From: a virus
Reading direction: 5' to 3' (one strand)
Virus record (IMG/VR): IMGVR_UViG_3300030410_000060
Span: 1 to 52,799 of that record
Length of the DNA stretch: 52,799 nucleotides
Every line of letters begins with the position of its first letter. Positions within the stretch are counted from its first letter, which is position 1. Both the position numbers and the translations under genes were made by a program. Below, piece after piece: positions 1 through 35,717 of the stretch. The notes below the pieces were generated by a model. The model was not told the DNA's origin, ran no database searches, and saw only the letters and a list, made by a program, of their open reading frames with translations.

Positions 1-54
1 GGGGTCGGGGTCGGGGTCGCGGTCGTGGTCGCGGTCGGGGTCGCGGTCGTGGTC
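1..54 (+). repeat. Hexanucleotide tandem repeat at the left edge
   Basis: Nine consecutive 6-bp units of the form GNGGTC (GGGGTC, GCGGTC or GTGGTC) run from the first base of the window. In the frame of the following gene they read as alternating Gly/Ala/Val-Val dipeptides with no stop. The array touches the edge, so its true length is unknown. It may be where an assembly broke or a circular genome was opened. Confidence 0.85.
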
Positions 55-60
55 GTCCAA

Positions 61-23888: not shown

Positions 23889-24551
23889 TTATCCGCCGGA
23901 GCCTGGGAGTACAGAGCTTTCGTCGAAATCAAGCCAAATCGTGATAAGAGTACCGTCTGATGGGGCAGTCAATAAGTTACCTTTGTAACAGTTGAGGTAC
24001 ACGTATCCGCCAATGCCGTTAGCATTTTGAGGATTTGGGTTAACAGTGAGGTTAGGATTACCGATAACCTCAATGTGGTCGCCTGAGGACCCTGCTGCCG
24101 GGGCAATAGCTGTAGTGGCGGAGCCGCCGATTAGGGCGGACGAAGTAGCTATAAATGCTACGCCGATAGCAGGAGTTACCCCGAGAGGGAGGCCGACAGC
24201 GATCCACTGAGCAGTGGTGGCAGTACCTAAAGCAGTGATAACGTTAATGTTATTGGCTACCGTTGAGGTTGTCGGAGTTCCATTAGGAGAGGAAAGAGTT
24301 GAGACAGCGCCGATAAAGCGTCTATAGTTATCCTTGATCTGTACTTGGATAGCTCCTGCGATAGGGTTAGGGCTCCCTCCGGTAGGGGAACCGGTTGTGT
24401 GCATGAATACGTTTTTAACCATTCCAGACGATTTTAGTCCGGTAATCCCTAGGCCGTTGCCCGAAGCTACGGTAAAAGAAAACTCGAAAGAAGCAGGGCG
24501 AGCGTGAGGAGAGTAAACATTGCCTTTATTGGCCCAATTACGATTTGCCAT
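23889..24551 (-). CDS. Structural protein, 220 aa (decoration or tail-associated)
   Basis: A Gly/Ala/Thr-rich beta protein, low in charge, with no motif I recognise. The last third (DHIEVIGNPNLTVNPNPQ and YVYLNCYKGNLLTAPSDGT) looks like a jelly-roll or fibre-tip-like domain. It is the first gene of the tail module and is preceded by a structured leader and a copy of the 25-nt motif. Candidate functions are capsid decoration or a tail appendage. Confidence 0.55.
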   Translation of the reverse strand: MANRNWANKGNVYSPHARPASFEFSFTVASGNGLGITGLKSSGMVKNVFMHTTGSPTGGSPNPIAGAIQVQIKDNYRRFIGAVSTLSSPNGTPTTSTVANNINVITALGTATTAQWIAVGLPLGVTPAIGVAFIATSSALIGGSATTAIAPAAGSSGDHIEVIGNPNLTVNPNPQNANGIGGYVYLNCYKGNLLTAPSDGTLITIWLDFDESSVLPGSGG

Positions 24552-24557
24552 AGTACT

Positions 24558-24633
24558 GATATCCTTAGGTATTCCGCGCTAGTATCACCGTAGTGGCATG
24601 CGGAATAGCCTAACGGGCAAGACTAAGGATATC
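24558..24633 (-). other. Structured leader with nested inverted repeats
   Basis: The 107-base gap between 24551 and 24659 holds outer arms GATATCCTTA (24558-24567) and TAAGGATATC (24624-24633). They enclose inner arms TATTCCGC (24570-24577) and GCGGAATA (24600-24607). The arms can also be extended through CCTAA/TTAGG. It lies between the motif copy and the start of the 220-residue gene, so it would be the 5' leader of that transcript. Candidate regulatory RNA or processing site. Confidence 0.5.
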
Positions 24634-24637
24634 TTAG

Positions 24638-24662
24638 GCTTACTAAGTGTAAGGGCTTTCAC
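24638..24662 (-). promoter_or_regulatory. Repeated 25-nt motif, copy 3
   Basis: Minus-strand sequence GTG, a 10-base loop ending CCTTA, CAC, then TTAGTAAGC. Flanking GGCTT and AAGCC are complementary and extend the stem to eight pairs. It overlaps the last bases of the 78-residue gene and lies 86 bases upstream of the start at 24551, the first gene of the tail module. Confidence 0.6.
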
Positions 24663-24895
24663 AAGCCTTTGACCTCGGTAACCTTATAATAATAGACTAG
24701 GCGTGCTATAAAGGCGTATAGGTCGTCTGTATACCCCTCTAACCCTCCTAGGTAGTGGGCTACAGCTATGATAGGAATACCATAAGCTACGGCTATTTGA
24801 CCGATAGACTCGAGGAGGGGCTCATCTGGCCTCCCTCCTCGCCAAGCCACTATTGCAGGAATATTAATACGATAGAGGCTTACGTCTATGATCAT
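24659..24895 (-). CDS. Hypothetical protein, 78 aa
   Basis: A small, mostly hydrophobic protein (IGQIAVAYGIPIIAVAHYLGG, about 31-51), perhaps a weakly membrane-associated or globular helix pair. Not recognised. It overlaps the preceding gene (ATGA) and is the last of the accessory block. Its end is overlapped by motif copy 3. Confidence 0.5.
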   Translation of the reverse strand: MIIDVSLYRINIPAIVAWRGGRPDEPLLESIGQIAVAYGIPIIAVAHYLGGLEGYTDDLYAFIARLVYYYKVTEVKGL

Positions 24896-25122
24896 GTTAA
24901 ATCCTCGTCCAAGGACTCTCTCGGAGCCTTTAGTAGGGACTTACTCTTTTTCAATTCAAGGAGGCTAAGTGAGAGAGCGTACTTCGCCATGACAGCTTGC
25001 ACCGCTCTGGCCCTGTCTACTCGGTGCTTCGGGAAGGTCGTAGCCTGTCCGAGATCGTCGGTGTCTGGAATACCGAGGGCTAAGAAGCGGCCAGTGTCGG
25101 AGTTGACTAATATGAGTTTCAT
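24892..25122 (-). CDS. Hypothetical protein, 76 aa
   Basis: A charged helical protein (Lys/Arg/Leu-rich C-terminal half) starting MKLILVNSDTGRFLALGIPD. Not recognised. The ATG overlaps the stop of the 51-residue gene upstream as TAATG, so it is coupled. Confidence 0.55.
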   Translation of the reverse strand: MKLILVNSDTGRFLALGIPDTDDLGQATTFPKHRVDRARAVQAVMAKYALSLSLLELKKSKSLLKAPRESLDEDLT

Positions 25123-25277
25123 TACCCGCTCCTTTCATTGGCTTCTCGAAACCGCTCCAGTGCGAACTCAAGCTGCTCGGGGGTTAGCTCTAAGATCTCA
25201 GTAGGGAAGAGGGGCAGTTGAACTGTGCCCGTTGGTAGTGTTCCGGTTTCTAGAATGTTTACGGTGTTGGGTTTCAT
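25122..25277 (-). CDS. Small hypothetical protein, 51 aa
   Basis: A 51-codon frame with a textbook GGAGGTG ribosome binding site, seven bases ahead of the ATG at 25277. The product is a soluble acidic peptide starting MKPNTVNILETGTL and ending EANERSG. The coding position and perfect start, plus the TAATG overlap with the next gene, make it a believable gene. Confidence 0.62.
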   Translation of the reverse strand: MKPNTVNILETGTLPTGTVQLPLFPTEILELTPEQLEFALERFREANERSG

Positions 25278-25289
25278 GATTGCACCTCC

Positions 25290-25511
25290 TTAAAACCACT
25301 TAATGCGGTTACGAATTTGTTCGCTACATTCAAGAATTTGTTGAGTGCCCTTTTTCGCAAGCTCAGCGGCCTCAAGAGTTTCGTATCGAACAGGGTAGCC
25401 AACTAGACCATTCGACACCGTCCAATACTTGCGGGTGCCTGTGACTTCGAAACAATCAGCCGTGAACTTGATTTGACTTGGGGCTGGTCGTGGTCCTAAT
25501 TGGTTTTTCAT
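25290..25511 (-). CDS. Hypothetical protein, 73 aa
   Basis: A small mixed alpha/beta protein with the pattern KFTADCFEVTGTRKYWTV and a helix (ETLEAAELAKKGTQ). Not recognised; the strand-strand-helix order resembles small nucleic-acid-binding proteins, but this is only a hint. An AGGAGAA binding site supports the start. Confidence 0.58.
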   Translation of the reverse strand: MKNQLGPRPAPSQIKFTADCFEVTGTRKYWTVSNGLVGYPVRYETLEAAELAKKGTQQILECSEQIRNRIKWF

Positions 25512-25540
25512 ACTCTGTGTTCTCCTGATACCAGTATTGC

Positions 25541-25557
25541 GCGTTAACGCTTAACGC
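25541..25557. other. Inverted repeat at the end of the 33-aa gene
   Basis: Arms GCGTTAA and TTAACGC around a 3-base centre overlap the stop of the 33-codon gene. It could be an operator or mRNA-stabilising hairpin; no T-run follows. Confidence 0.35.
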
Positions 25558-25652
25558 ACAAGTTGTGTCGTTAAAGACCGAGGCGGTTTATTGAATCTAT
25601 TGGACTTTGCGGCTCTGGTAGTAATGCTAGTGCCATTATATTTCTTGCTCAT
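25551..25652 (-). CDS. Small basic peptide, 33 aa
   Basis: A 33-codon basic frame (MSKKYNGTSITTRAAKSN onward) with a clear TAGGAGATAAAA ribosome binding site ahead of the ATG. Rich in Lys/Arg/Ser/Thr, possibly DNA- or RNA-binding. No homologue is recognised. Confidence 0.48.
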   Translation of the reverse strand: MSKKYNGTSITTRAAKSNRFNKPPRSLTTQLVR

Positions 25653-25704
25653 TTTTATCTCCTAAGTTAAAGCCTAATACAATTATTATAATAAATCAAG
25701 TGTG

Positions 25705-25923
25705 TCATCCTCTTTTTAATTTAGAGTTTTTCTCCCTATTGTTAAACCTAACAGCTTCCTCGTCATCATTTAGGGTCTGCCCCTCCTGAATAGGATAGAG
25801 CTGTCCGATAGGAATGATATAAATATAGAGGGATTTTGTTAGTATCCAAGCTTCTCCATTAGCTACAGAGATCACTGTACCCGCCACATTATCCGCCATT
25901 ACCGCAATGTCGCCTTCTCTCAT
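25705..25923 (-). CDS. Hypothetical protein, 72 aa
   Basis: It opens with MREGDIAVMADNVAGTV, a strand-loop-strand beginning like a small beta-barrel or MazG/KOW-like fold, and has a charged disordered tail (NNREKNSKLKRG). Not recognised. Overlap with the dUTPase stop as ATGA shows translational coupling to it. Confidence 0.5.
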   Translation of the reverse strand: MREGDIAVMADNVAGTVISVANGEAWILTKSLYIYIIPIGQLYPIQEGQTLNDDEEAVRFNNREKNSKLKRG

Positions 25924-26333
25924 TTGCCTGTGCTCCCATATCCGCCCGTGCCTCGAGCACTGGGGTTTAGTGTGCCTTCTACAAGTGTAATTTGAGGGTA
26001 GGGGAGGACTATAAGCTGTCCAATCCTCTCCCCTAACTTATAGGGCGTTCTATTCCCGCTACCTGTAAATCGAAAGGACACCTCCCCTCTGTAGCCGCTA
26101 TCTAGTACACCGACTGAGTTACAAAGCATTAAGCCCCGCTCGCTAATACTAGACCTAGGGAAAAGAAGACCTACGTACCCTTCTGGTATCTCAAAGGATA
26201 AGCCAGTACCATATTCCCAGTACTCATCTTTTATCGACATACTATTAGCAGTTAAATCTAAAGCAGCGTCTCCCTCCTTAGCATAAGCGGGAGTTATGGC
26301 GTTTTCATAGAGCTTTTTGAATTTGATAATCAT
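25920..26333 (-). CDS. dut: dUTP diphosphatase (trimeric dUTPase)
   Basis: The protein (137 aa) shows all five motifs of trimeric dUTPases: motif 1 DAALDL, motif 2 PRSSIS, motif 3 GVLDSGYRGEV, motif 4 RIGQLIVLP and motif 5 the C-terminal RGTGGYGSTG. It converts dUTP to dUMP and pyrophosphate, keeping uracil out of DNA and feeding dTMP synthesis. The motif 3 Asp activates water. It follows the ribonucleotide reductase by 66 bases, forming a nucleotide-metabolism pair, and overlaps the next gene. Confidence 0.95.
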   Translation of the reverse strand: MIIKFKKLYENAITPAYAKEGDAALDLTANSMSIKDEYWEYGTGLSFEIPEGYVGLLFPRSSISERGLMLCNSVGVLDSGYRGEVSFRFTGSGNRTPYKLGERIGQLIVLPYPQITLVEGTLNPSARGTGGYGSTGK

Positions 26334-26399
26334 TTTTGCCTTTCTATACCCTTACGGGACTTTTTTCATGGTTTTAGCTAATTTTGTACCCTATCGGTG

Positions 26400-28022
26400 T
26401 TAAAGTCCACACACCCCGTTTAAGCACTCGCGTTCTTTCTCCTCGAACACAGTACCTTCGTCGGCTAGGGCCTCAGCGAGAGACACTCTCTCTAAAGGTT
26501 GTCCACTTCTTGAGCCGTCGGGATACACGGTAAACCCGCGTAAGCGCTTAGCATACTTCAATAGGGTATTGGAATGGGAGTCGAGAGTAGCTTCGCTATT
26601 CGACTCAGAGCCCCAGGCAGGCATGTTACAAGTACTAGATATGGACATATCCACGTAGTTTTGTACGTCTGCCTGGAACTTAACCCTTTCCTTAAAGGTA
26701 AGGTCATAGCTATCCGTAATTCTATCCAATTTTACCCCTAATTCCATAAGACGCTTAACGCTCCCGTCTACGACATATTGATAGAACCATTTGCCCTCTT
26801 TAAAGTAGCGTCTCTTATACGCCTTACAGAATAGGGGCTCTAGGCCTGTTGTGGTCTCCGCTATGATACCAATGGTACCGGTGGGGGCGACAGCTCTAAC
26901 GCCTTTGGGGACTGAGACCCCGAGCTGCTTAGCGCCAATGAAAGCCATGCTGTCACTCTCCTGCTCATACACGGATAACCAACGGTGCAGCTCTGCTGTC
27001 GCAGCGTAGGGTTGTCCTCGTATCATTAGCCATTCATGAATACCCCCTAGGCCAAGTCCGATGCGATTGTTTTTGTCTCCCACCTCTTTAATTTTAGGCG
27101 TAGGGATTTGGCTATAGATACCGCCGCAGAGGAGGAATAGAGTAGAGAGCTTAACTACTTCGGATAGCTCCTTAGTGTCTTTAATCCTATTAATCCAGAC
27201 GGTGCCTAAGTTACACTTATCGCTGTCGTCCTCACTAGTGACCTCCGTACATGCGTTTCGTAAGTTCTCGTTATCCTTACGAAAGTTGAAAGCCATTCCC
27301 GGCTCAGCAGTGCTAAACGCTTGTCTACAGTTTTCTTTCCATACTTTCTTAGCTAACTCATGTTTTGGATGATTATCATACTCAATAGCCATGAAAAATT
27401 CTGTATCATACTCGACACTTATGTTAGTTAGCTCCATAGGGAGTACAAAGGTGAGGTCATTGGCTTTAGAGGCTTTCATAGCTTCGGAGTGGTCTTTAAG
27501 TTTTAGGAACTTAAAAACGTCGGCATGAGACCAATTCATACCGGCCCATATAGCGCTTCTGCGCTGTCCGCCCTGCATGACGTAGCGCCCTGCTTCGTTA
27601 ACCATGTTCATTAAGGCGATAGGACCTGTTGAGGTCCCACCGGTGCGAGAGATTTTAGCCCCCTCTGGTCGTACCTTAGAGTAACTTACCCCGATGCCGC
27701 CGCCTGTCATGAGGGACGCGGTCACCTTACCCATTACGTCGGCCCAGCCCTCACGGCTGTCTTCGGCTCGGAATAGAAAGCAGTTATTGACCTGATGAAA
27801 CTCACGACCGGCTGCATAGAGATACCGGCCGCCTGGGATAAACTTACGGGAGAGGATTAAGTTATAGATCTTCTCTTTCGTCTTGGCGTCGAGGAGCTGG
27901 GAGCAGACACTCTCGACTACCCTCCTCGCGGTGTCCGACCACGTCTCGATACCGTCTTTCGAGTACTTCTGAAGATAAATGTCTTGGCTAAACTTAGAAC
28001 CGAATACGTCAAATTTACTCAT
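26400..28022 (-). CDS. nrdJ: Ribonucleotide reductase, adenosylcobalamin-dependent (class II)
   Basis: The protein (540 aa) is a class II (B12-dependent) reductase converting ribonucleotides to deoxyribonucleotides. Support: FIPGGRYLYAAG, NNCFLF with the first active-site Cys, GGGIGVSYSKVRPEG, KCNLGTVW (the catalytic finger-loop Cys-Asn-Leu) and APTGTIGIIAETTTGLEP. The C-terminal CLNGVC pair (C533, C538) is reduced by thioredoxin-type partners. It is shorter than host class II enzymes, as in many phages. The start at 28022 overlaps the preceding stop as ATGA with an AAGGAAAAA site; a longer upstream frame runs into that gene. No NrdB-type radical subunit or thioredoxin is seen here, consistent with class II. 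Confidence 0.9.
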   Translation of the reverse strand: MSKFDVFGSKFSQDIYLQKYSKDGIETWSDTARRVVESVCSQLLDAKTKEKIYNLILSRKFIPGGRYLYAAGREFHQVNNCFLFRAEDSREGWADVMGKVTASLMTGGGIGVSYSKVRPEGAKISRTGGTSTGPIALMNMVNEAGRYVMQGGQRRSAIWAGMNWSHADVFKFLKLKDHSEAMKASKANDLTFVLPMELTNISVEYDTEFFMAIEYDNHPKHELAKKVWKENCRQAFSTAEPGMAFNFRKDNENLRNACTEVTSEDDSDKCNLGTVWINRIKDTKELSEVVKLSTLFLLCGGIYSQIPTPKIKEVGDKNNRIGLGLGGIHEWLMIRGQPYAATAELHRWLSVYEQESDSMAFIGAKQLGVSVPKGVRAVAPTGTIGIIAETTTGLEPLFCKAYKRRYFKEGKWFYQYVVDGSVKRLMELGVKLDRITDSYDLTFKERVKFQADVQNYVDMSISSTCNMPAWGSESNSEATLDSHSNTLLKYAKRLRGFTVYPDGSRSGQPLERVSLAEALADEGTVFEEKERECLNGVCGL

Positions 28023-28471
28023 CTCTTTTTTCCTTTGTTTTTGAGTGCTTCTAATGCTGCTAGGCAAATGGCATGAGGGATAGAGTCCCCCACTGTATAC
28101 GCGAAGTCTAACTTCGTAGCTGAGTCGGATACCCTGCATATATACTGAAGTGGGGGTGCGTTATAGGATTTACTCTCTACTGTAAACCCTAACGGGTTAA
28201 GCTTGTTTACGACTGTCCAAGCGTCATATATTCTAGTTGAGTACCTAGGTAAGAGGCAGTCTTCGTCTGCATGGGCCCCTCGAGCCTCGGCAGATGTCCA
28301 TTCAAAAACTCGCACTGCGATTTCGGCGTCTAAGTTACGGCTTGAGGGGAGGTCCTCGGCTGCTTGACTCAAGGTCTTAGTGAGGCAAATCGGACACTTC
28401 TCAGCGGTATCCGACAGGTAGTGGGTCTCCTCGCAGTCGCTACAAGTAAAAGCTGTTAGATGTTTTAGCAT
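28019..28471 (-). CDS. Zinc ribbon plus phage ABA-sandwich domain protein, 150 aa
   Basis: The N-terminus has two CxxC knuckles (FTCSDC and KCPIC) forming a zinc ribbon, then a flexible linker. Then comes the pattern of a phage ABA-sandwich domain (LPRYSTRIYDAWTVVNKL, with IPHAICLAALEAL at the end). This domain occurs in small phage proteins of unknown role. The start at 28471, two bases after the previous stop with a GGGGGAAT site, is preferred over a longer frame. It is the gene before nrdJ in the operon. Confidence 0.62.
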   Translation of the reverse strand: MLKHLTAFTCSDCEETHYLSDTAEKCPICLTKTLSQAAEDLPSSRNLDAEIAVRVFEWTSAEARGAHADEDCLLPRYSTRIYDAWTVVNKLNPLGFTVESKSYNAPPLQYICRVSDSATKLDFAYTVGDSIPHAICLAALEALKNKGKKR

Positions 28472-28472
28472 A

Positions 28473-28640
28473 TCATTCCCCCAATAGTCGTGCGCAATAG
28501 GTGTAAAAAGTGTCATCGTCCATGTCCTCCGCTGGTATATCGAGGCCGTCTTCGAAAGCTAAGTCGTCGATTTGGGCTAAGTCGATTGTAAAGGTCTTAC
28601 CGTTATTTGGGTTTTCGTACTCAAATACTCGTTTAGTCAT
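28473..28640 (-). CDS. Small acidic protein, 55 aa
   Basis: A 55-codon frame starting at the ATG at 28640 with a TTAGGAGAAA binding site. It encodes an acidic product (MTKRVFEYENPNNGKTFTID then a DDLAFEDGLDIPAEDMDDD stretch). Acidic small phage proteins often mimic DNA or inhibit host enzymes, but no function is assigned here. The upstream frame to 28841 lacks start signals. A sigma70-like promoter lies just upstream. Confidence 0.6.
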   Translation of the reverse strand: MTKRVFEYENPNNGKTFTIDLAQIDDLAFEDGLDIPAEDMDDDTFYTYCARLLGE

Positions 28641-28662
28641 AAAAGTTTTTCTCCTAACTAAG

Positions 28663-28691
28663 ATACTACACGCCCTAACAATAGGCGTCAA
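28663..28691 (-). promoter_or_regulatory. Sigma70-like promoter ahead of the nrdJ operon
   Basis: On the minus strand: TTGACG, 17-base spacer, TAGTAT. It lies between the 76-residue and 55-residue genes, about 20 bases before the 55-residue gene start. It is one of five similar boxes in the window. Its strength is unknown. Confidence 0.6.
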
Positions 28692-28705
28692 TGTGTCTTT
28701 TAAAA

Positions 28706-28936
28706 CTATTTTACTCTTTTTAGCTTTCCTTGTAGAAGATACAATTTTTTGTATATGAGGTCTAGCGCTATCATATCCTCTAAGGTGGCAGGACCTACGC
28801 AATATCTGTGCCAGTTTAAGAGCTGCCCCACGTCCTTGCATTCCTCAACTATCTGGGGAGGAGGTACCTCAATTTGTAAGGGCTCCTCTCCTAGCTCATC
28901 TCTCCCGCGCTTCCATTCATTCCATTTAGTCGGCAT
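28706..28936 (-). CDS. Hypothetical protein, 76 aa
   Basis: A helical, charged protein starting MPTKWNEWKRGRDELGEEP, with a C-terminal leucine- and lysine-rich helix (LDLIYKKLYLLQGKL). Not recognised. A GGAGACACAT site supports the ATG. Promoter 28957-28985 and the 27-bp repeats lie directly upstream. Confidence 0.58.
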   Translation of the reverse strand: MPTKWNEWKRGRDELGEEPLQIEVPPPQIVEECKDVGQLLNWHRYCVGPATLEDMIALDLIYKKLYLLQGKLKRVK

Positions 28937-28956
28937 ATGTGTCTCCTTTCAAAGAC

Positions 28957-28985
28957 ATGGTACTTTTAGGGAAGGCGGGAGTCAA
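28957..28985 (-). promoter_or_regulatory. Sigma70-like promoter ahead of the 76-aa gene
   Basis: On the minus strand: TTGACT, 17-base spacer, TACCAT, about 20 bases before the ATG at 28936. Directly upstream are two 27-bp repeats with hairpin potential that could be operators. Confidence 0.58.
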
Positions 28986-28992
28986 CTATTAT

Positions 28993-29052
28993 TTATGGTG
29001 TCGTATAAGACACCGTATAAGGCTCTTATGGTGCCATATAAGACACCGTATA
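28993..29052. repeat. Two 27-bp direct repeats with internal palindromes
   Basis: Two units (28993-29019 and 29026-29052), differing at two positions, share TTATGGTG at the start and TATAAGACACCGTATA at the end. Each contains a palindrome of the type GGTGTC/GACACC that can form a 6-bp hairpin. They lie just upstream of a sigma70-like promoter, fitting a tandem operator for a phage or host repressor. Confidence 0.68.
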
Positions 29053-29068
29053 CCGTGTAAGGGCGCAT

Positions 29069-29359
29069 CTATAAGCCCGCTTCTAAAGGGGTCCGTTTTT
29101 GTACACGCACTGTCGAAAACGATACCCGTTTAATTAGCCCTGCCTCCTCCAGGGCGTCCTTGCCAAAGAACTTAGTCATAGCGTCAATACTCTCTAGGCG
29201 TGTCTGCACTACGGGAGTGACCATAACTAAAAACCTGTCTGTAGAGAAAGAACCGGTCATTCTGCATAAGTCCTTAATCTCCTTAGCTTTTTGTTCTAAG
29301 TCCTTAATCTGGGCCTCTATCATAACTAACTTCTCTAACGTCTCATCGGTGAGCTTCAT
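29069..29359 (-). CDS. Hypothetical helical protein, 96 aa
   Basis: An N-terminal coiled coil (about residues 8-33: LEKLVMIEAQIKDLEQKAKE) is followed by a beta-rich section and a charged tail. Not recognised; resembles small phage host-interference proteins only in general. A GGAGAAGA site lies upstream. The TATA-rich tandem repeats lie just beyond its 3' end. Confidence 0.58.
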   Translation of the reverse strand: MKLTDETLEKLVMIEAQIKDLEQKAKEIKDLCRMTGSFSTDRFLVMVTPVVQTRLESIDAMTKFFGKDALEEAGLIKRVSFSTVRVQKRTPLEAGL

Positions 29360-29574
29360 TGGTCTTCTCCTTTAGGCCAAGTAAATTCGTTTTCATATAT
29401 GGGGAATTTGATATACCCGTTTAGTCCGTACTCTCTAAAGGTTTCTATCTCATTGTCCCCATCCTTATAGGCTAGGAGAATGGGCACTAAGAAAGGACAG
29501 GTTCTAATCGCGGTAACTGCCATCTTTATACACCGGGGGTGGCCGGGTTTGTCTAGTACTAGTATCAGTTTCAT
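29356..29574 (-). CDS. Hypothetical protein, 72 aa
   Basis: The product starts MKLILVLDKPGHPRCIKMAV, a beta-turn-helix entry, followed by ILLAYKDGDNEIETFREYG. It has the outline of a small Rossmann-like or glutaredoxin-like unit, but no active-site motif is seen. It overlaps both neighbours (ATGA), so it is translationally coupled. Confidence 0.55.
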   Translation of the reverse strand: MKLILVLDKPGHPRCIKMAVTAIRTCPFLVPILLAYKDGDNEIETFREYGLNGYIKFPIYENEFTWPKGEDQ

Positions 29575-30146
29575 ACGCTGTGTCCTCGGCGCTGAGTGTC
29601 TTCGTTGCTGTCTTCTCGAAGTCTTGAGATAAACTCTGCGATATCGTCTGGGCTCATCGTAGAGGGGAGGGGGATATTCATAGCTTTACCATTAAAGACA
29701 AAGGTAAGGATGACGTTTTGCACCGGTGTTTTTAGGGGGGTCTTCGGGGTGGGGCGGGGGGTAGGTAGGGCTACGGGGTTGCTTACTATCTGAGCTAAGG
29801 TCTCATACTGGACTGGGCGCTTATACTCTTTAACTTGCGCAGCTCCTCCGAAAAACGCCTCCCCTAGTTGAGGGATACGGTACCGTATTGATTTGAGGGC
29901 TTTAACCTTATGGTGTCTGTCTAGCTCTAAGGTCCCTACGCCAGCTACGGCTAGGCAGTTTAGGGCCTCTGCGTAGTCCTCTCTTTGATAGGTAAACTTC
30001 TCCTCCGTCATTTTAAGCACTAAGGCGTCTAGGGTTAGTATATGCCTAGCTCTTTTCCTTTGTGCGAACATATGGAGGACGTCCGTTAGGGCGGGGCGGG
30101 TTTTAGCGTCTTCTCTTAACTTCGATATCACTTCTTTTGTAGTCAT
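29571..30146 (-). CDS. Hypothetical protein, 191 aa
   Basis: The first 110 residues are helical and charged, with EKFTYQREDYAEALNCLAVAG, consistent with a winged-helix-like unit. A Pro-rich linker (about 120-140, PTPRPTPKTPLKTP) leads to a C-terminal domain with VILTFVFNGKAMNIPLPS and DDIAEFISRLRED. Probably a two-domain regulator or host-interaction protein; not recognised. A sigma70-like promoter lies about 30 bases upstream of the ATG. It is the first gene of the accessory block. Confidence 0.55.
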   Translation of the reverse strand: MTTKEVISKLREDAKTRPALTDVLHMFAQRKRARHILTLDALVLKMTEEKFTYQREDYAEALNCLAVAGVGTLELDRHHKVKALKSIRYRIPQLGEAFFGGAAQVKEYKRPVQYETLAQIVSNPVALPTPRPTPKTPLKTPVQNVILTFVFNGKAMNIPLPSTMSPDDIAEFISRLREDSNEDTQRRGHSV

Positions 30147-30172
30147 TGATTTGACTCCTTTTCTTAATCAGG

Positions 30173-30201
30173 GTTTTACATGATTAGGGAGGGAGCGTCA
30201 A
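30173..30201 (-). promoter_or_regulatory. Sigma70-like promoter for the accessory block
   Basis: On the minus strand: TTGACG, 17-base spacer, TAAAAC, ahead of the 191-residue gene. It sits just downstream of the capsid terminator, so it restarts transcription after the head operon ends. Confidence 0.58.
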
Positions 30202-30220
30202 GAGATATTATATAATAAAT

Positions 30221-30251
30221 AAAAAAGGCTAGGGAGGAGTCCTCCCTAGCC
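30221..30251 (-). terminator. Rho-independent terminator after the major capsid gene
   Basis: On the minus strand a perfect 10-bp stem, GGCTAGGGAG and CTCCCTAGCC with a 5-base loop, is followed immediately by six T residues. It is 27 bases after the capsid stop. It ends the head operon and would protect the accessory block from high-level capsid transcription. Confidence 0.92.
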
Positions 30252-30277
30252 CTAAATCGACAAGCGATTTAATTATT

Positions 30278-31429
30278 TTATTGACTTAATGTGACGTTCA
30301 TATTCCAGCCCGGGGCTCGACATATGAGGTTTCCATAATAGCCGATACGAATTTCTAATGCATCTGCCGTGCCAACCCTTAAACCCTCAAGACCTTCCAT
30401 ACCATAGGTAAGGATGTGAGGAATTTTTCCAAGGCTCTTGAGCTTCCATGTGTCCATTTGAAGCAAGAAACATGTAACAGGAGGGCATGAACGGTCTGCT
30501 AGAACCGTGACGCGTCCGTAAGCGCTTTGGAAGGTGATACCTTCGAAAGCTACTTCAACTTCGTCGTGCTTAACTTGTACGTACTGGACCTTAGCGCCCA
30601 ATGCGTTAACAAGAGCCGAATAAGAAGCGAAGTCCATGATAGCTAAGTCAAACTTAGCGCCTTCTCGGTTACCGAAAGCGAGGGCATTGGTCATGCCTTC
30701 TTCAATCGTGTACGAGCTAGCGTCGTAACGAAGACCTGCCATACGGGTAGGGTCTTGGCTTCGGTTAACTCCCCAGAAGTTATCATTGGTAGCTACGCCA
30801 GTAGCTACAGAAGGTATCCAAGCAGCGAAACCAGTCAAAGCTTGATAAGAAGCTGTTGAGGTTGCACCGGTGGATGGGATATCGCCTGTTACTGATAGGT
30901 ATGCGCTACCAGTTCCAATTGCCCAGTTAGCGCTCAAAGAAGAAGCCGAAGCTGTCCCTTTAACGATACCTGCTGCACGGTCTACAGAAGTGACTAGCAC
31001 TGTGTCAGTAGAAGGTACGCCCCCTGCTGTCGAGGAAGCAGACAAGAGCATTCCAACTTCAAATGACACGATTTGTTGTGCATTTGTTAGAGGTAGAACA
31101 GTTCCACCGACAGTCAATCCTGCTTGTGTCGAAGCTGAGCTAGAAAGACCACGAGTCGACGTTCCGTCCGAGAAAAGCTCGAATGCAATGTTGTTCGTAA
31201 TATTTCTAAATCCGCCGTCCATTTGTAGCTTAGCTGCGTCTACGAATGCGCCAGCGTTACTCTTGGTTTGTTCCATGAGTAGGTTGGTGATAGTTACCAA
31301 TTGATAATCTTGGATAACATAGACAAAGAATGAAGCTAGGGAAGCCGCAGTCTGTTGAGCTTGTGCATTAGCGAAGATATGGGATCTACCTTGAGGGTCG
31401 CCAAATTCGATCGGTACTGGAATGTACTT
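30278..31429 (-). CDS. Major capsid protein, exon 2 (383 of 434 aa)
   Basis: Together with exon 1 at 31954-32106 this encodes a 434-residue major capsid protein, the shell of the head (HK97-type fold expected, not proved here). Exon 2 begins KYIPVPIEFGDPQGRSHIF and is open from 31429 with no start codon of its own. A TTG at 31300 is a false start inside a conserved stretch. The join of exon 1 ending DGFAG to exon 2 starting KYIPV restores the family pattern of charged N-terminal helix, DGxAG, then YxPVPI. The terminator at 30221-30251 follows. The high expression expected of a capsid gene makes an intron here striking. Confidence 0.88.
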   Translation of the reverse strand, partial: KYIPVPIEFGDPQGRSHIFANAQAQQTAASLASFFVYVIQDYQLVTITNLLMEQTKSNAGAFVDAAKLQMDGGFRNITNNIAFELFSDGTSTRGLSSSASTQAGLTVGGTVLPLTNAQQIVSFEVGMLLSASSTAGGVPSTDTVLVTSVDRAAGIVKGTASASSLSANWAIGTGSAYLSVTGDIPSTGATSTASYQALTGFAAWIPSVATGVATNDNFWGVNRSQDPTRMAGLRYDASSYTIEEGMTNALAFGNREGAKFDLAIMDFASYSALVNALGAKVQYVQVKHDEVEVAFEGITFQSAYGRVTVLADRSCPPVTCFLLQMDTWKLKSLGKIPHILTYGMEGLEGLRVGTADALEIRIGYYGNLICRAPGWNMNVTLSQ

Positions 31430-31953
31430 CAGTTTTGTTATCGTAGCGGCTTTTTATCCACTACTTCTTAAACTTATTGAGATACTCTATTATCTGTAAG
31501 CACCTAGCTACGGACTCTTTTACGAATCCTATGGCCGGGTTACAGTTGTCACAGAGAAGAGCCCTTATTTCTAAGGTTTTGTGGTCATGATCTACAGACA
31601 ATCGTCTAGTTAGGGTGGCTTGATTAGCTCCACAACAAGCACAATTACCTTCTTGATCGTCAAACATTAAAGCGTATCTTTCTTCTCGGATACGGTAATG
31701 CTTCCACAAATCTTCTCTAAAACACTTTAGTTGCCTAAGAGTATATCTTTGTTTAAGCTCAGCATACATTTTCACCCGTTCTGGGTGTCGGACACTCGTG
31801 CCAGAATTATATTCCTTTTCAGGGGTCATCTGGTATGCGTTACGGAGATCAAGGACGTTACTCTCTTGATTTTCCTCGGTATTAGCGATTTCAGCCTCCA
31901 CCGATTTTGCCCAATTCTGCACTTTAGTTCCCTAAAGTTCGGGCAAGCAATTC
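31430..31953 (-). other. Group I intron in the major capsid gene
   Basis: 524 nt. The 5' exon ends in U before G, and the intron ends in G, the group I rule. P1: exon CGGGU (31954-31958) pairs with GCCCG (31940-31944) with the U-G wobble at the splice site. P10: UGCUU (31945-31949) pairs with exon 2 AAGUA (31425-31429). P2: ACUUUAG/CUAAAGU (31932-31938, 31921-31927) with a GGAA loop. P5: UCGGU/ACCGA (31900-31904, 31876-31880) with the group I-like UAAUACCGAG. P6: AUCAAG/CUUGAU (31865-31870, 31848-31853). P7: GCAUAC/GUAUGC (31833-31838, 31762-31767). P8: UUCUGG/CCAGAA (31801-31806, 31779-31784). A P9-like hairpin is at 31443-31464. P3 and P4 were not resolved. Confidence 0.88.
31461..31829 (-). 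CDS. Intron-encoded endonuclease VII-type HNH homing endonuclease
   Basis: A 122-residue protein of the endonuclease VII/HNH beta-beta-alpha-metal family. Motifs: CACCG zinc knuckle, SVDHDHKT (catalytic His/Asp), RALLCDNCN and a C-terminal helix (residues about 105-120). Such enzymes cut an intronless allele so repair copies the intron in. I start at ATG 31829 because the frame from there looks protein-like (SVRHPERVKMYAELKQRY). A GTG at 31922 with an AGGGA site in the P2 loop gives 153 aa, and ATG 31769 gives 102 aa. The coding region overlaps the P7/P8 core, a compact arrangement. It lies wholly inside the intron. Confidence 0.88.
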   Translation of the reverse strand: MTPEKEYNSGTSVRHPERVKMYAELKQRYTLRQLKCFREDLWKHYRIREERYALMFDDQEGNCACCGANQATLTRRLSVDHDHKTLEIRALLCDNCNPAIGFVKESVARCLQIIEYLNKFKK

Positions 31954-32106
31954 ACCCGCGAACCCATCACTTGACTCGTCCTTAGGAATAAGCGCGAAAG
32001 CAGGATTCTCTTTATAAACGAGATCTTGCATGTATTCTTTGTCGTCTTTATATAGCTCCTTCAATGAAGCTAATTGATTAGTACTATTTGCATATACGGC
32101 TGCCAT
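31954..32106 (-). CDS. Major capsid protein, exon 1 (51 aa)
   Basis: The ATG at 32106 has an AGGAGG site upstream. It encodes residues 1-51 of the capsid protein (MAAVYANSTNQLASLKELYK onward, ending SSDGFAG) up to the last codon GGT, whose final base is the U before the 5' splice site. The reading frame continues ELLARTLGN into the intron and stops at 31924, so unspliced RNA would give a 60-residue dead-end peptide. The exon is an N-terminal arm typical of capsid proteins, here separated by the intron. Confidence 0.87.
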
Positions 32107-32218
32107 ATGGAAGCCTCCTATTATTTAACCTGAGAAATGATGTTTCTTATGCACCCTGTTCTCTAAGCGTTTTGTTAACTTACTATTGGCACACAAAGAC
32201 AGTCTCTGGGTGCCAGTA

Positions 32219-33343
32219 TTAAGTTTTATTCCCGTTAAACACCGCGATAGCACGCTCCCGAGCGGAGAGGGGCTTCCCGCCTGAGGTCATGTTATTGGTG
32301 AGAGTACGGGTAGTATTTTGATTTGCGGTCGATGACTGCGACTGCGTCCCTTGTGTAGTTTGGCTTGGCTTAGCGACCGGTGTAGCTGGTTTTAAACGCT
32401 TTTGGATTTTTTCTAAGCGCGAGAGTTTCTCATGCTGCTCAATCCACTGGTTTACCAGTTCGTCTTCAACTAATCTGGCTGCCTGTTCCACCGAAAGAAG
32501 TGTACCGGGTCGGTACTTTCCGGGCAGCCCTTTTTCATGGACATCTTTAATCAAGTTGACAATCTCCTCCGCCTGGCCGGTTTCTTTGATAGTCGCGAAT
32601 TCAGGGTCGCTAGCTACTAGCTCCTCTGCCTCATACGTCATCGCAGTAATGGCTTGGTTATAGGAGTCGGTCTGACTTGTCTCAAATGTCTTTTTAGACT
32701 CATCCTGAGCGGCTTCTAGCTTGGCTATCTTAGCTTCTAACTTAGCCATATAAGACGCTTGCGCGGGGCTTATTTGGTCTTGGTTTAGAAGGCGGTTAGC
32801 CATATCTTCCCTAGAAAAACCTAACTCTTCGAGGACTGAGACGGGGTCTTGAGTCATTCTATCCTTAGGAATGTACTTAGACTCGTCAAAAGTAGACGCT
32901 TTGGGCGTCTGCGTACCACTCAACTTTAAGGCTTCCTGCTCAGCTTTGAAAGCTTGGCGGGCAGCGTTTAGCTTCTGCGTCTCAGCTCTTAAGGCTTTTT
33001 CCTTACGGGCTAGGATAGCATAGTGCGGGGAGAGGGGCTCCTCTACTTTCGTCGGACTCGTTACTTCTTCTGTGTCACTAGTGTAACTTTGTTCACTTAG
33101 GGGCTCCTCAGTCGGTTTGACTTGAGCCCTAAGGCTGCTAAATTCCTCTGGGGAGACGTTTGATGCGTCCCTTACCGAGGTACCCTCTTGTACGGTGTTT
33201 TGCCCCTGGGGGGCTTGTGGAGCTTGTCCGCCGCCATTAAAGGCTGCGATAGCTCTTGCTCTGTTTTCCTTAGCGGCGTTACCCGCTGGGCCTGATTTGT
33301 CAATGAACGGAATGGCAGGACCTGCCTTTGGTGTGATTTGCAT
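32219..33343 (-). CDS. Scaffold protein, 374 aa
   Basis: It lies between portal and capsid genes, the usual place for a scaffold. The sequence is highly charged and helical, Lys/Glu/Gln/Ala-rich, with coiled coils at about residues 110-140 and 195-220, and has low-complexity ends. A motif of the form RAIAxFNG occurs near the N-terminus (about residue 28) and again near the C-terminus (about residue 363), framing the protein. The opening MQITPKAGPA resembles the portal opening MQVTPKGKGG. It would guide capsid assembly and be removed during maturation. The AAGGAAAAA site supports the ATG. Confidence 0.72.
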   Translation of the reverse strand: MQITPKAGPAIPFIDKSGPAGNAAKENRARAIAAFNGGGQAPQAPQGQNTVQEGTSVRDASNVSPEEFSSLRAQVKPTEEPLSEQSYTSDTEEVTSPTKVEEPLSPHYAILARKEKALRAETQKLNAARQAFKAEQEALKLSGTQTPKASTFDESKYIPKDRMTQDPVSVLEELGFSREDMANRLLNQDQISPAQASYMAKLEAKIAKLEAAQDESKKTFETSQTDSYNQAITAMTYEAEELVASDPEFATIKETGQAEEIVNLIKDVHEKGLPGKYRPGTLLSVEQAARLVEDELVNQWIEQHEKLSRLEKIQKRLKPATPVAKPSQTTQGTQSQSSTANQNTTRTLTNNMTSGGKPLSARERAIAVFNGNKT

Positions 33344-33389
33344 ACGATTTTTTCCTTGCTGGGATTTAAGTTATTGTTATTGCTGCACA

Positions 33390-33418
33390 ATTATAGCTTG
33401 CTTGCATGAAACTTTAAT
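33390..33418 (-). promoter_or_regulatory. Possible promoter ahead of the scaffold
   Basis: A perfect -10 box TATAAT (minus strand) lies in the 103-base gap before the scaffold gene. The -35 region ATTAAA, at 17 bases, matches poorly. It could boost scaffold and capsid over portal, but evidence is thin. Confidence 0.3.
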
Positions 33419-33446
33419 AAAGGTCCCTGCAATAGCTATAAACTTT

Positions 33447-33779
33447 TTACTCTCCGAATGCGGAGTTGAGGATATCTAGAAAGAAGCCCTTAACCTTTTC
33501 GCTTAAGGTAGGGGGAGCTGTCACCGGGGTAGGTTCGGGCTTTGGGTTAAGAACCTCTAAAGCGTTTTGATTGGCTACCATAGAGATTACTCGGGCTCTT
33601 GTCGCCTCTCTTATGGGCTTCATATAGGCGTCACGGGCAAGGGATTTAATCTCTTGGTCCTTACGCCACTGGATGAGGTCGGCCTTTCCTCCAATAGGGA
33701 TAATGCTATAGGGGAGGGCTTTTTTCTGTTGGTTAATAGAATACTCAGGAACTTGGAAATTGTGATTATATCTTAACAT
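33447..33779 (-). CDS. Head-module protein, 110 aa
   Basis: A charged helical protein with an N-terminal MLRYNHNFQVPEYSIN, a central helix (RKDQEIKSLARDAYMKPIRE) and a C-terminal SEKVKGFFLDILNSAF. It is encoded between portal and scaffold, so probably a head-module component. Not recognised; could be a portal-associated or packaging factor. Confidence 0.55.
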   Translation of the reverse strand: MLRYNHNFQVPEYSINQQKKALPYSIIPIGGKADLIQWRKDQEIKSLARDAYMKPIREATRARVISMVANQNALEVLNPKPEPTPVTAPPTLSEKVKGFFLDILNSAFGE

Positions 33780-35717
33780 TTACTGTCCTTGTGCCGGGGC
33801 GTTAGGTACCATAGGCGAAGTCGGTAGGGGTTGGGGGTTAGCCTGGGGCGTAGGGGCACCGGGTTGCGGGGCTCCGGCCTGCGGCATTTGAGGAGGGACG
33901 GCTGCGGCCTTCATGCCCTGAACTTGAGAGTAGAAGTCTCTCAGCATTTGGCAGCGCTCCTCCTCGAGCTTAGCGGGTACGTAGAGGTTATAGTATTGGA
34001 CGACTAGGTCGTTGGCTAGGGAGAGGTCCATGAAGCTATCTGGGCCGGTATAGATACCTTCCTCAATGATTTCGTCTAGGTACTTAAATATTCTTTCCTC
34101 AGAGGCGTTAGCGAGCTTCTCCATTTGTCCTAGGTCTGGGTAGTCAAGGAGGCGACGGCCTTCCTTAATGCTAATCATACCGGATTGGATCATTTCGACG
34201 ACTTTTTCCATACGACCGGCAGGGTCTCTAGGAAGGGAGGACATATTAAAGCACTGGATAACGAAAGGGTCCTTAAGCATTTTAATATGCGGGAGGTCAA
34301 TAGTCTTGGTGCCGTCTTTACCTGGGTAGACGGTCTGGTATTTGCCTGTATCTTTGGCAATGTCCGTAGCAATATCTATGACTAAGTATGCGGCATCTAT
34401 GAATATATTATCATAACGTCTGGACATCGAGGCGAACCGATCGCTAGCTATGTCGTCGTAGACCCTTTGTGCTGCTCCGCTGTTTAAACCGGCTGGTTTC
34501 TCCCCGCTAGCCTGCATTCCTGACACGCCTGACTGCTGAAAGCCGTACTGGATAAGGCGCTGCAATTGAGCGTACAGCTCCTCGGGGACACAAGGGGCGA
34601 CTTCGAAGATGGGTTTGGTACCAATGTAAGGTATGATCGTCCCGACGTCCGAATTGAAGTGGGCTGGGTTAACTTTGCTCGACGCTTCAACGAAGACGCG
34701 TGGGACACCAACGAGTTTAATTGCTCGAGAAATAGTAAATAGTAGGCTGTTAATCTCAAGTTGTGTGCCCATAAGCTGCTCGGCGAGTCCCTGTGCCCAG
34801 AAGCCGAGCAGTCGAGGACTGTAATGCAAGAACACGAAGGGGAACTTATCTTTGGTGTAAGGCTCATCGAAGATTATACCTCCTGAACAGGCTAGGGTGT
34901 GTCTACCGTCGGTGGCGCCTTTACCGGAGGGGAGGCGCCATCCTTCTATGACTAATACGAGGTCGGAGACGGACTTAGCGGACTCTGAGGAGTTATCGAC
35001 GGTCGCTCTCTCGGCTCTTTCGATCTCAGCTTTGAAGGTCGGGTTGGCTTCGATTAATACTCCCCTGTCCACTAGCTTACGGTGATAGATTTGTCTGGGG
35101 GACCCGTCACCATATACGCCCTCATTTGGGTCTATGTCTAACTCAGTGAGGAGGACGCGGTCTGCTCCTACCTTATCGTCTTCTGTCCTGTAGAATTTAA
35201 GGCAGCCCGTACCCTCTACGAAAGCGTCCCTTAGGATAAGGGCAGCCTTGTCGTAGAGTTTAGTTTGATAGAATTCACCTAAGATAAAATTATTTAGTTT
35301 TTTCGCTAAGTTACGTTCTTTATAGTCGCCGTTGTCGGTTAAGAATACGGGAGCAGGGCGAGATTGAGATAGTCTGGATACTAGGGTATCGACGCAGGAT
35401 TGAATGATATTGAAGGTAGGGCGGTCGGTCGGGAGGCCGCTGACGCTGTCCATTTTTGACATGTTATTGCCAATAAAGGAGAACAAAGACATATTCCCGT
35501 ATAATCTTGCATAGATAGCAGCTTGTTTATACCGATATGCTTGGTTTGTTCTTAGGTATTCGGCCGTAGAGAGTAGTTCGTCTTTGACTTGAGTTTTACT
35601 CTTAGCTTTCCACCAAGAGAAGGCGCTTTGGCCCATCTTTTTCTTATTGGCTGAGGTATTAAATACCTTCGTGGCTGTAGGGGCTAGGCCCCCTTTTCCC
35701 TTTGGTGTAACTTGCAT
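33780..35717 (-). CDS. Portal protein, 645 aa
   Basis: The dodecameric vertex through which DNA enters and leaves. Support is position between terminase-side genes and scaffold, length, and portal-like patterns: RLSQSRPAPVFLTDNGD, a long wing with HRKLVDRGVLIE, FPFVFLHYSPRLLGFWAQGLAEQLMG as the clip/stem region, and a helical C-terminus (EERCQMLRDFYSQVQGMK). The last about 40 residues are Pro/Ala/Gln-rich. It overlaps the 104-residue gene upstream by one base. The opening resembles the scaffold opening (MQVTPK versus MQITPK). Confidence 0.88.
   Translation of the reverse strand: MQVTPKGKGGLAPTATKVFNTSANKKKMGQSAFSWWKAKSKTQVKDELLSTAEYLRTNQAYRYKQAAIYARLYGNMSLFSFIGNNMSKMDSVSGLPTDRPTFNIIQSCVDTLVSRLSQSRPAPVFLTDNGDYKERNLAKKLNNFILGEFYQTKLYDKAALILRDAFVEGTGCLKFYRTEDDKVGADRVLLTELDIDPNEGVYGDGSPRQIYHRKLVDRGVLIEANPTFKAEIERAERATVDNSSESAKSVSDLVLVIEGWRLPSGKGATDGRHTLACSGGIIFDEPYTKDKFPFVFLHYSPRLLGFWAQGLAEQLMGTQLEINSLLFTISRAIKLVGVPRVFVEASSKVNPAHFNSDVGTIIPYIGTKPIFEVAPCVPEELYAQLQRLIQYGFQQSGVSGMQASGEKPAGLNSGAAQRVYDDIASDRFASMSRRYDNIFIDAAYLVIDIATDIAKDTGKYQTVYPGKDGTKTIDLPHIKMLKDPFVIQCFNMSSLPRDPAGRMEKVVEMIQSGMISIKEGRRLLDYPDLGQMEKLANASEERIFKYLDEIIEEGIYTGPDSFMDLSLANDLVVQYYNLYVPAKLEEERCQMLRDFYSQVQGMKAAAVPPQMPQAGAPQPGAPTPQANPQPLPTSPMVPNAPAQGQ

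Follow-up and report, generated by a model that had tools for sequence, protein, structure and literature searches.

Sequence evidence that a group I intron, probably mobile, splits the major capsid gene of a tailed phage

Why is the major capsid gene of this phage in two pieces, and how could an intact protein be made from it? The window analysed here is a whole IMG/VR virus record of 52,799 bases, in which terminase, DNA polymerase and B12-type ribonucleotide reductase genes are present. Its major capsid gene, downstream of a portal gene (33780-35717), occupies positions 32106-30278 of the minus strand, and its two pieces are separated by 524 nucleotides (31953-31430). A sequence-only reading of this DNA had proposed that the gene is broken after codon 51 by a group I intron, that the second half is without a start codon, and that removal of the 524 bases joins DGFAG to KYIPVP. 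The coordinates of the pieces agree with the proposed break, and no start codon is found at the head of exon 2.

31954 to 32106, minus strand: major capsid gene exon 1, 51 codons, ending GCG GGT (sequence, relatives)
31430 to 31953, minus strand: group I intron, 524 nucleotides (sequence, relatives, covariance model)
30278 to 31429, minus strand: major capsid gene exon 2, 383 codons, starting AAG TAC ATT (sequence, relatives)

In a comparison aimed at the HK97-fold major capsid proteins, exon 2 matches the capsid family NF033394 with an E-value of 6.8e-18 and 64.9 bits, which is below the cut-off of 80, and phrog_9953 with an E-value of 5e-6. A structure model of the capsid protein is poor (pLDDT 55), and its top structure matches are phage capsids, although these are weak and supportive only. 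A tblastn search with the capsid protein against GenBank phages returned no match.

The joint between the exons can be read directly from relatives that carry no intron. In these genes, which are 58-78% identical, the reading frame continues without interruption through DGFAG-KYIPVP at codon 51/52, as the alignment of intronless homologues at residues 51/52, suggested earlier as a check, was meant to reveal. Intron-free alleles miss exactly the insert, such that the joined sequence corresponds to the removal of 31953-31430. Judged from the protein alone, the joint could lie one base to the side, because GGT and GGG both encode Gly, and the U..G rule decides in favor of GGGU/GAAUUG...AACUG/AAG (slashes denote splice sites), the junction expected from the sequence-only reading.

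The elements that can be assigned within and next to the insert are as follows.

31954 to 31958, minus strand: P1 exon strand CGGGU, last U opposite G (sequence)
31940 to 31944, minus strand: internal guide sequence, P1 strand GCCCG (sequence)
31945 to 31949, minus strand: internal guide sequence, P10 strand UGCUU, pairing with exon 2 AAGUA (sequence)
31921 to 31938, minus strand: P2 hairpin ACUUUAG-GGAA-CUAAAGU (sequence)
31758 to 31916, minus strand: catalytic core P3-P8 with P7.1/P7.2 and P7' (covariance model R1)
31909 to 31914, minus strand: P3 5' strand UUGGGC (alignment, R1)
31788 to 31793, minus strand: P3 3' strand GUCCGA (alignment, R1)
31900 to 31904, minus strand: P4 5' strand UCGGU, with 3' strand ACCGA at 31880-31876 (alignment, R1)
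31848 to 31870, minus strand: P6 hairpin AUCAAG...CUUGAU (alignment, R1)
31834 to 31838, minus strand: P7 5' strand GCAUA (alignment)
31762 to 31766, minus strand: P7 3' strand UAUGC (alignment)
31801 to 31833, minus strand: P7.1/P7.2, outer stem CCAGA/UCUGG (alignment, R1)
31773 to 31787, minus strand: P8 hairpin CACCC...GGGUG (alignment, R1)
31461 to 31769, minus strand: endonuclease VII-type homing endonuclease gene, 102 amino acids, P9 region (Pfam, sequence)
31443 to 31464, minus strand: P9.1 hairpin GUAGUGG-AUAAAAAG-CCGCUAC (sequence, relatives)
31430 to 31442, minus strand: intron 3' end GAUAACAAAACUG, ending AACUG, last G being omega G (sequence, relatives)

The five-base-pair P1 with its U-G wobble, the five-base-pair P10 with exon 2 and the P2 stem with a GGAA loop, all noted previously from the letters of the window, are thus present. 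Searches with Rfam models, including RF00028, yielded no match in the window either at the gathering score or in permissive mode (E<=5), and no match was obtained with 20 loci carrying related introns. We likely owe this silence to a divergent P7 together with a gene of 300 nucleotides placed between P7' and P9.1. The earlier suggested check with RF00028 is negative, but a covariance model specific to the family was strongly positive. This model (R1) was built from 27 capsid-gene introns of relatives with the intron of the window left out, and it matches 31916-31758 with 130.5 bits and an E-value of 5.5e-31. No other strong match exists in the window, and the next best hit within 24000-34000 reaches 7.9 bits when filters are switched off.

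The core comprises 41 pairs, of which 96.0% are paired in the 27 relatives, versus 73% for shuffled and 28-42% for slid controls. Changes on both sides occur at 32 of the 41 pairs, including those of the P3/P7 pseudoknot, and covariation in the relatives supports P3, P4, P5, P6, P7, P7.1, P7.2, P8 and P9.1. P7 alone is found as GCGUA/UACGC, GCAUA/UAUGC, GACUA/UAGUC and GAGUA/UACUC. Automatic scoring placed a guide G across from the final exon U in 31 of the 35 full introns in the capsid gene, at sites that differ in exon sequence.

A second line of evidence comes from the 3' end, which is shared by nearly all related inserts and consists of a covarying hairpin with the loop AUAAARAG, then GRUAACA, then ..UG. 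A search of viral contigs for this motif revealed more than 100 loci, often with a textbook AAGAUAUAGUC element and P9 preceding it. This 3' element, GGAUAAARAGCC..CGRUAACA, corresponds to P9.1 plus the tail and is present in more than 100 viral contigs (e.g. L184, L165, L121, L143 and L112); its P9.1 stem covaries in 142 distinct copies. A new ribozyme class, as suggested by the silence of Rfam, was considered and rejected, since the 3' motif led to Rfam-positive group I introns and the P3/P7 pairs settled the matter. Matches to R1 coincide in place with introns called group I by RF00028 (55-103 bits). The insert is a group I intron by its sequence, because the same model matches both the window and introns that Rfam recognizes as group I. 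The anatomy, namely covarying P7.1/P7.2 between P7 and P3', indicates that it probably belongs to subgroup IA.

Most of the insert is filled by a gene for a 102-residue endonuclease VII (31769-31461), located in the P9 loop, which was absent from the earlier account of this DNA. In its longer frame the protein matches PF02945 with an E-value of 7.6e-20. It carries the motif C-x2-C ... DHDH ... C-x2-C-N and aligns with T4 endonuclease VII and Hpy99I, relatives of known structure. The ATG lies in J8/7 and the following codons in P7' (31769-31762), while the stop lies in a P9.1 strand (31464-31461), so gene and ribozyme share sequence at both ends. An alternative open reading frame with a GTG start at 31922 overlaps the core, and this GTG is less likely to be the real start.

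We therefore consider it almost certain that the capsid gene of this tailed phage harbors a mobile group I intron, probably of type IA, that encodes an endonuclease VII-type homing endonuclease. A covarying core, guide pairings, intact intron-free alleles and an endonuclease domain are all observed. From the sequence we infer splicing in cells, homing and the exact cut site. In the transcript, the exon 1 end CGGGU would pair with the guide GCCCG to form P1, and the P3-P8/P7 core would bind guanosine and cleave 3' of the exon-terminal U. The freed exon 1 would then attack the bond that follows the terminal G, while exon 2 is kept in place by P10 (AAGUA/UGCUU), and an intact capsid protein of 434 residues would be made from the product. 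The presumed target of the endonuclease is codon 51 of capsid genes that lack the intron, where repair of the cut would copy the intron in.

Several other explanations for a split capsid gene were weighed against this one. A free-standing homing endonuclease gene might have divided the capsid gene into two pieces that are translated separately without splicing, for which a phage methylase gene holding an HNH insert out of frame offers a precedent (PMC11855218) and with which the lack of an Rfam intron match would agree. However, exon 2 is not headed by a start codon, the insert contains a complete group I core whose P1 and P10 match the exons, and in alleles the two parts meet precisely where splicing is predicted, all of which makes this origin improbable. 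It is more doubtful still that the arrangement is an assembly chimera or a dead capsid pseudogene. The locus is known from a single metagenomic record, but introns at the same codon (51) occur in the independent contigs L025, L273, L281, L285 and L351, and the exons have kept their reading frames and share up to 83-85% identity with intact relatives.

Explanations that act at the level of translation or of the protein fare worse. Ribosomes could bypass the insert in the manner of T4 gene 60, given the in-frame stop after the joint and the hairpins present. Known bypass gaps are about 50 nucleotides, far shorter than the 524 nucleotides of this insert, which moreover holds a complete covarying group I core, and bypassing is for these reasons scarcely credible. 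An intein, translated in frame and excised from the protein, is suggested by an insert lying in frame between conserved residues, but it is refuted by the in-frame stop after nine insert codons (ELLARTLGN, then stop). The endonuclease also needs its own start, and Pfam shows no intein domain in the insert reading frame P0001. We assign the intein the lowest probability of all, one that is practically nil.

The group I intron of the window belongs to a larger family that Rfam misses. Scans of IMG/VR returned more than 100 relatives, from which 108 distinct capsid genes were compared over codons 1-115. The gene is unbroken in 75 of these, and a further one (L253) was flagged but has no insert, giving 76 uninterrupted genes. 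At least 29 of these 108 have full introns within the first 115 codons, spread over roughly a dozen positions (codons 14, 21, 22, 29, 31, 35, 48, 51, 53, 55, 59, 61 and 108); the gene of L039 is also broken near codon 412. Judged by motif, the invading introns carry three kinds of endonuclease (endonuclease VII type, another HNH type and GIY-YIG type), and a few have none. Cores at different codons can be 86-87% identical (codon 59 in L349 with codon 55 in L014; codon 51 in L025 with codon 29 in L002), and this near identity suggests that introns have moved between sites within the capsid gene.

The codon-14 introns (L321:3365-4001, L062:1322-2157 and L008:1038-1925) have a GIY-YIG-type endonuclease (motif MIIYFV..IVYIGQ) whose gene precedes the core, a layout unlike that of the intron in the window. 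A second capsid lineage, which is S-CBWM1/S-TIM5-like (L184, L165 and L188), is full of group I introns; L184 alone has 11 RF00028 matches, and some exons in this lineage apparently measure only tens of bases.

Upstream of a full intron, 22 of the 29 intron-bearing genes contain one or two further inserts of 30-59 nucleotides, at codons 22, 28, 30, 34, 35, 46 and 51 (L026:2273-2305, L349:3963-4000, L338:4103-4135, L270:3212-3256, L035:2238-2294, L257:2927-2963 and others). None is present in the 76 intron-free capsid genes (Fisher p 6e-17). These mini-inserts lack a catalytic core; all that they contain is a guide, made of P1 and P10 strands, that is antisense to their own splice junction, as in L026, where UAAAAUACUUGCCCGCGUCUAGAGGCGCAAUUG lies between CGCGGGU and AAGUAU. 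The mapping of these inserts imposed a U before the insert and a G at its end; the guide was not imposed. A guide G lies opposite the last exon U in 22 of 23 mini-inserts, the antisense match to their own junction beats that of shuffled inserts in 18 of 23 (p<=0.005), and an in-frame stop occurs within three codons in 20 of 23. Four weakly scoring mini-inserts at codon 30 need a bulged U in P1.

A scan with strict pairing gave 13 matches in 6.2 kb of the exonic parts of intron-bearing genes (controls 0-1), versus two in the 25.6 kb contributed by genes without introns (controls 1-3). No excess was seen when the regions preceding 115 other group I introns were scanned, with 27 matches against 16-30 in the main controls and 8-12 in crude shuffles, so the inserts are not general in that sample. 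A still shorter arrangement occurs in L211 (3697-3806), where GCTGGT at capsid codon 51 is followed by a six-nucleotide insert, TAACTG, with an in-frame stop. The guide that matches it (UAUUUGCCAGC, also written TATTTGCCAGC) lies inside the next full intron, which begins at codon 55. Translational bypassing of the mini-inserts was also considered. At four codon-30 sites GAT or GAC lies upstream of Lys32, and only joining of the RNA restores the conserved Tyr, which argues against bypassing.

The simplest and likeliest reading of these sequences is that a neighbouring ribozyme splices the mini-inserts. On balance, we favor the view that they are guide-only, core-less mini-introns with a terminal G, spliced by the core of the full group I intron located downstream in the same transcript. 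In L257 a single core would then serve two mini-introns plus itself, and the intron of the window would represent an autonomous parent of such a system. If neighbouring ribozymes do splice these inserts, intron evolution would have taken a parasite-of-a-parasite step, and nature would supply an instance of one group I core acting on several junctions, which is directly testable in vitro.

The nearest precedent found for the mini-inserts is a set of introns of 63-75 nucleotides in Phialophora SSU rRNA genes (PMC3160393). These tiny introns likewise have P1 with G.U plus P10 and almost no core, but they keep P7, end in U and reside in fungal rRNA (PMC3160393). The phage inserts, in contrast, are 30-59 nucleotides long, end in G, hold only a guide and are in every case followed downstream by a full intron. 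If spliced as proposed, the mini-inserts, which are located in relatives and not in the window, look new.

The full intron is more familiar. The T4 td intron is of the phage IA type, with a U.G P1, a P3-P8 core, P7.1/P7.2 and an endonuclease gene in a peripheral loop. The intron of the window resembles this type as represented in RF00028 in having P1 with U.G, a P3-P8 core with the P3/P7 pseudoknot, P7.1/P7.2, a terminal G and a peripheral-loop endonuclease gene. It differs in scoring under the RF00028 threshold, in a P7 of GCAUA/UAUGC instead of GACUA/UAGUC, and in an endonuclease that is T4 endonuclease VII-like and placed in P9.

The location of the intron had been singled out in the sequence-only reading as worth attention. 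The sequence bears out the intron, but capsid-gene introns are already known, and that of the window adds another case. In the mycobacteriophage LittleE, an intron in the major capsid gene was established by RT-PCR and N-terminal protein sequencing (PMC3706429), and Tuc2009 is cited there as also having a capsid-gene intron. The LittleE intron is similar in that it interrupts a major capsid gene, spans about 0.8 kb, follows an exon-end U, ends in G, includes an endonuclease gene and is spliced in vivo. It differs in having a LAGLIDADG-type endonuclease gene, which is encoded on the opposite strand, and in a core that was left unresolved. The capsid families are unrelated as far as tested, the capsid protein of the window being without a match in the phage record collection. 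Jug phages also carry many group I introns and endonucleases in essential genes, with splicing supported by metatranscriptomes, although their introns reside mainly in terL, nrdD and polymerase genes (PMC12363816). The intron of the window, which is predicted to be self-splicing, is a well-supported instance in a gene that has to supply hundreds of copies of its protein.

Window positions 1-55, right at one end of the record, hold nine copies of a hexamer repeat, GGGGTC/GCGGTC, which could be a coding repeat or an end artefact.
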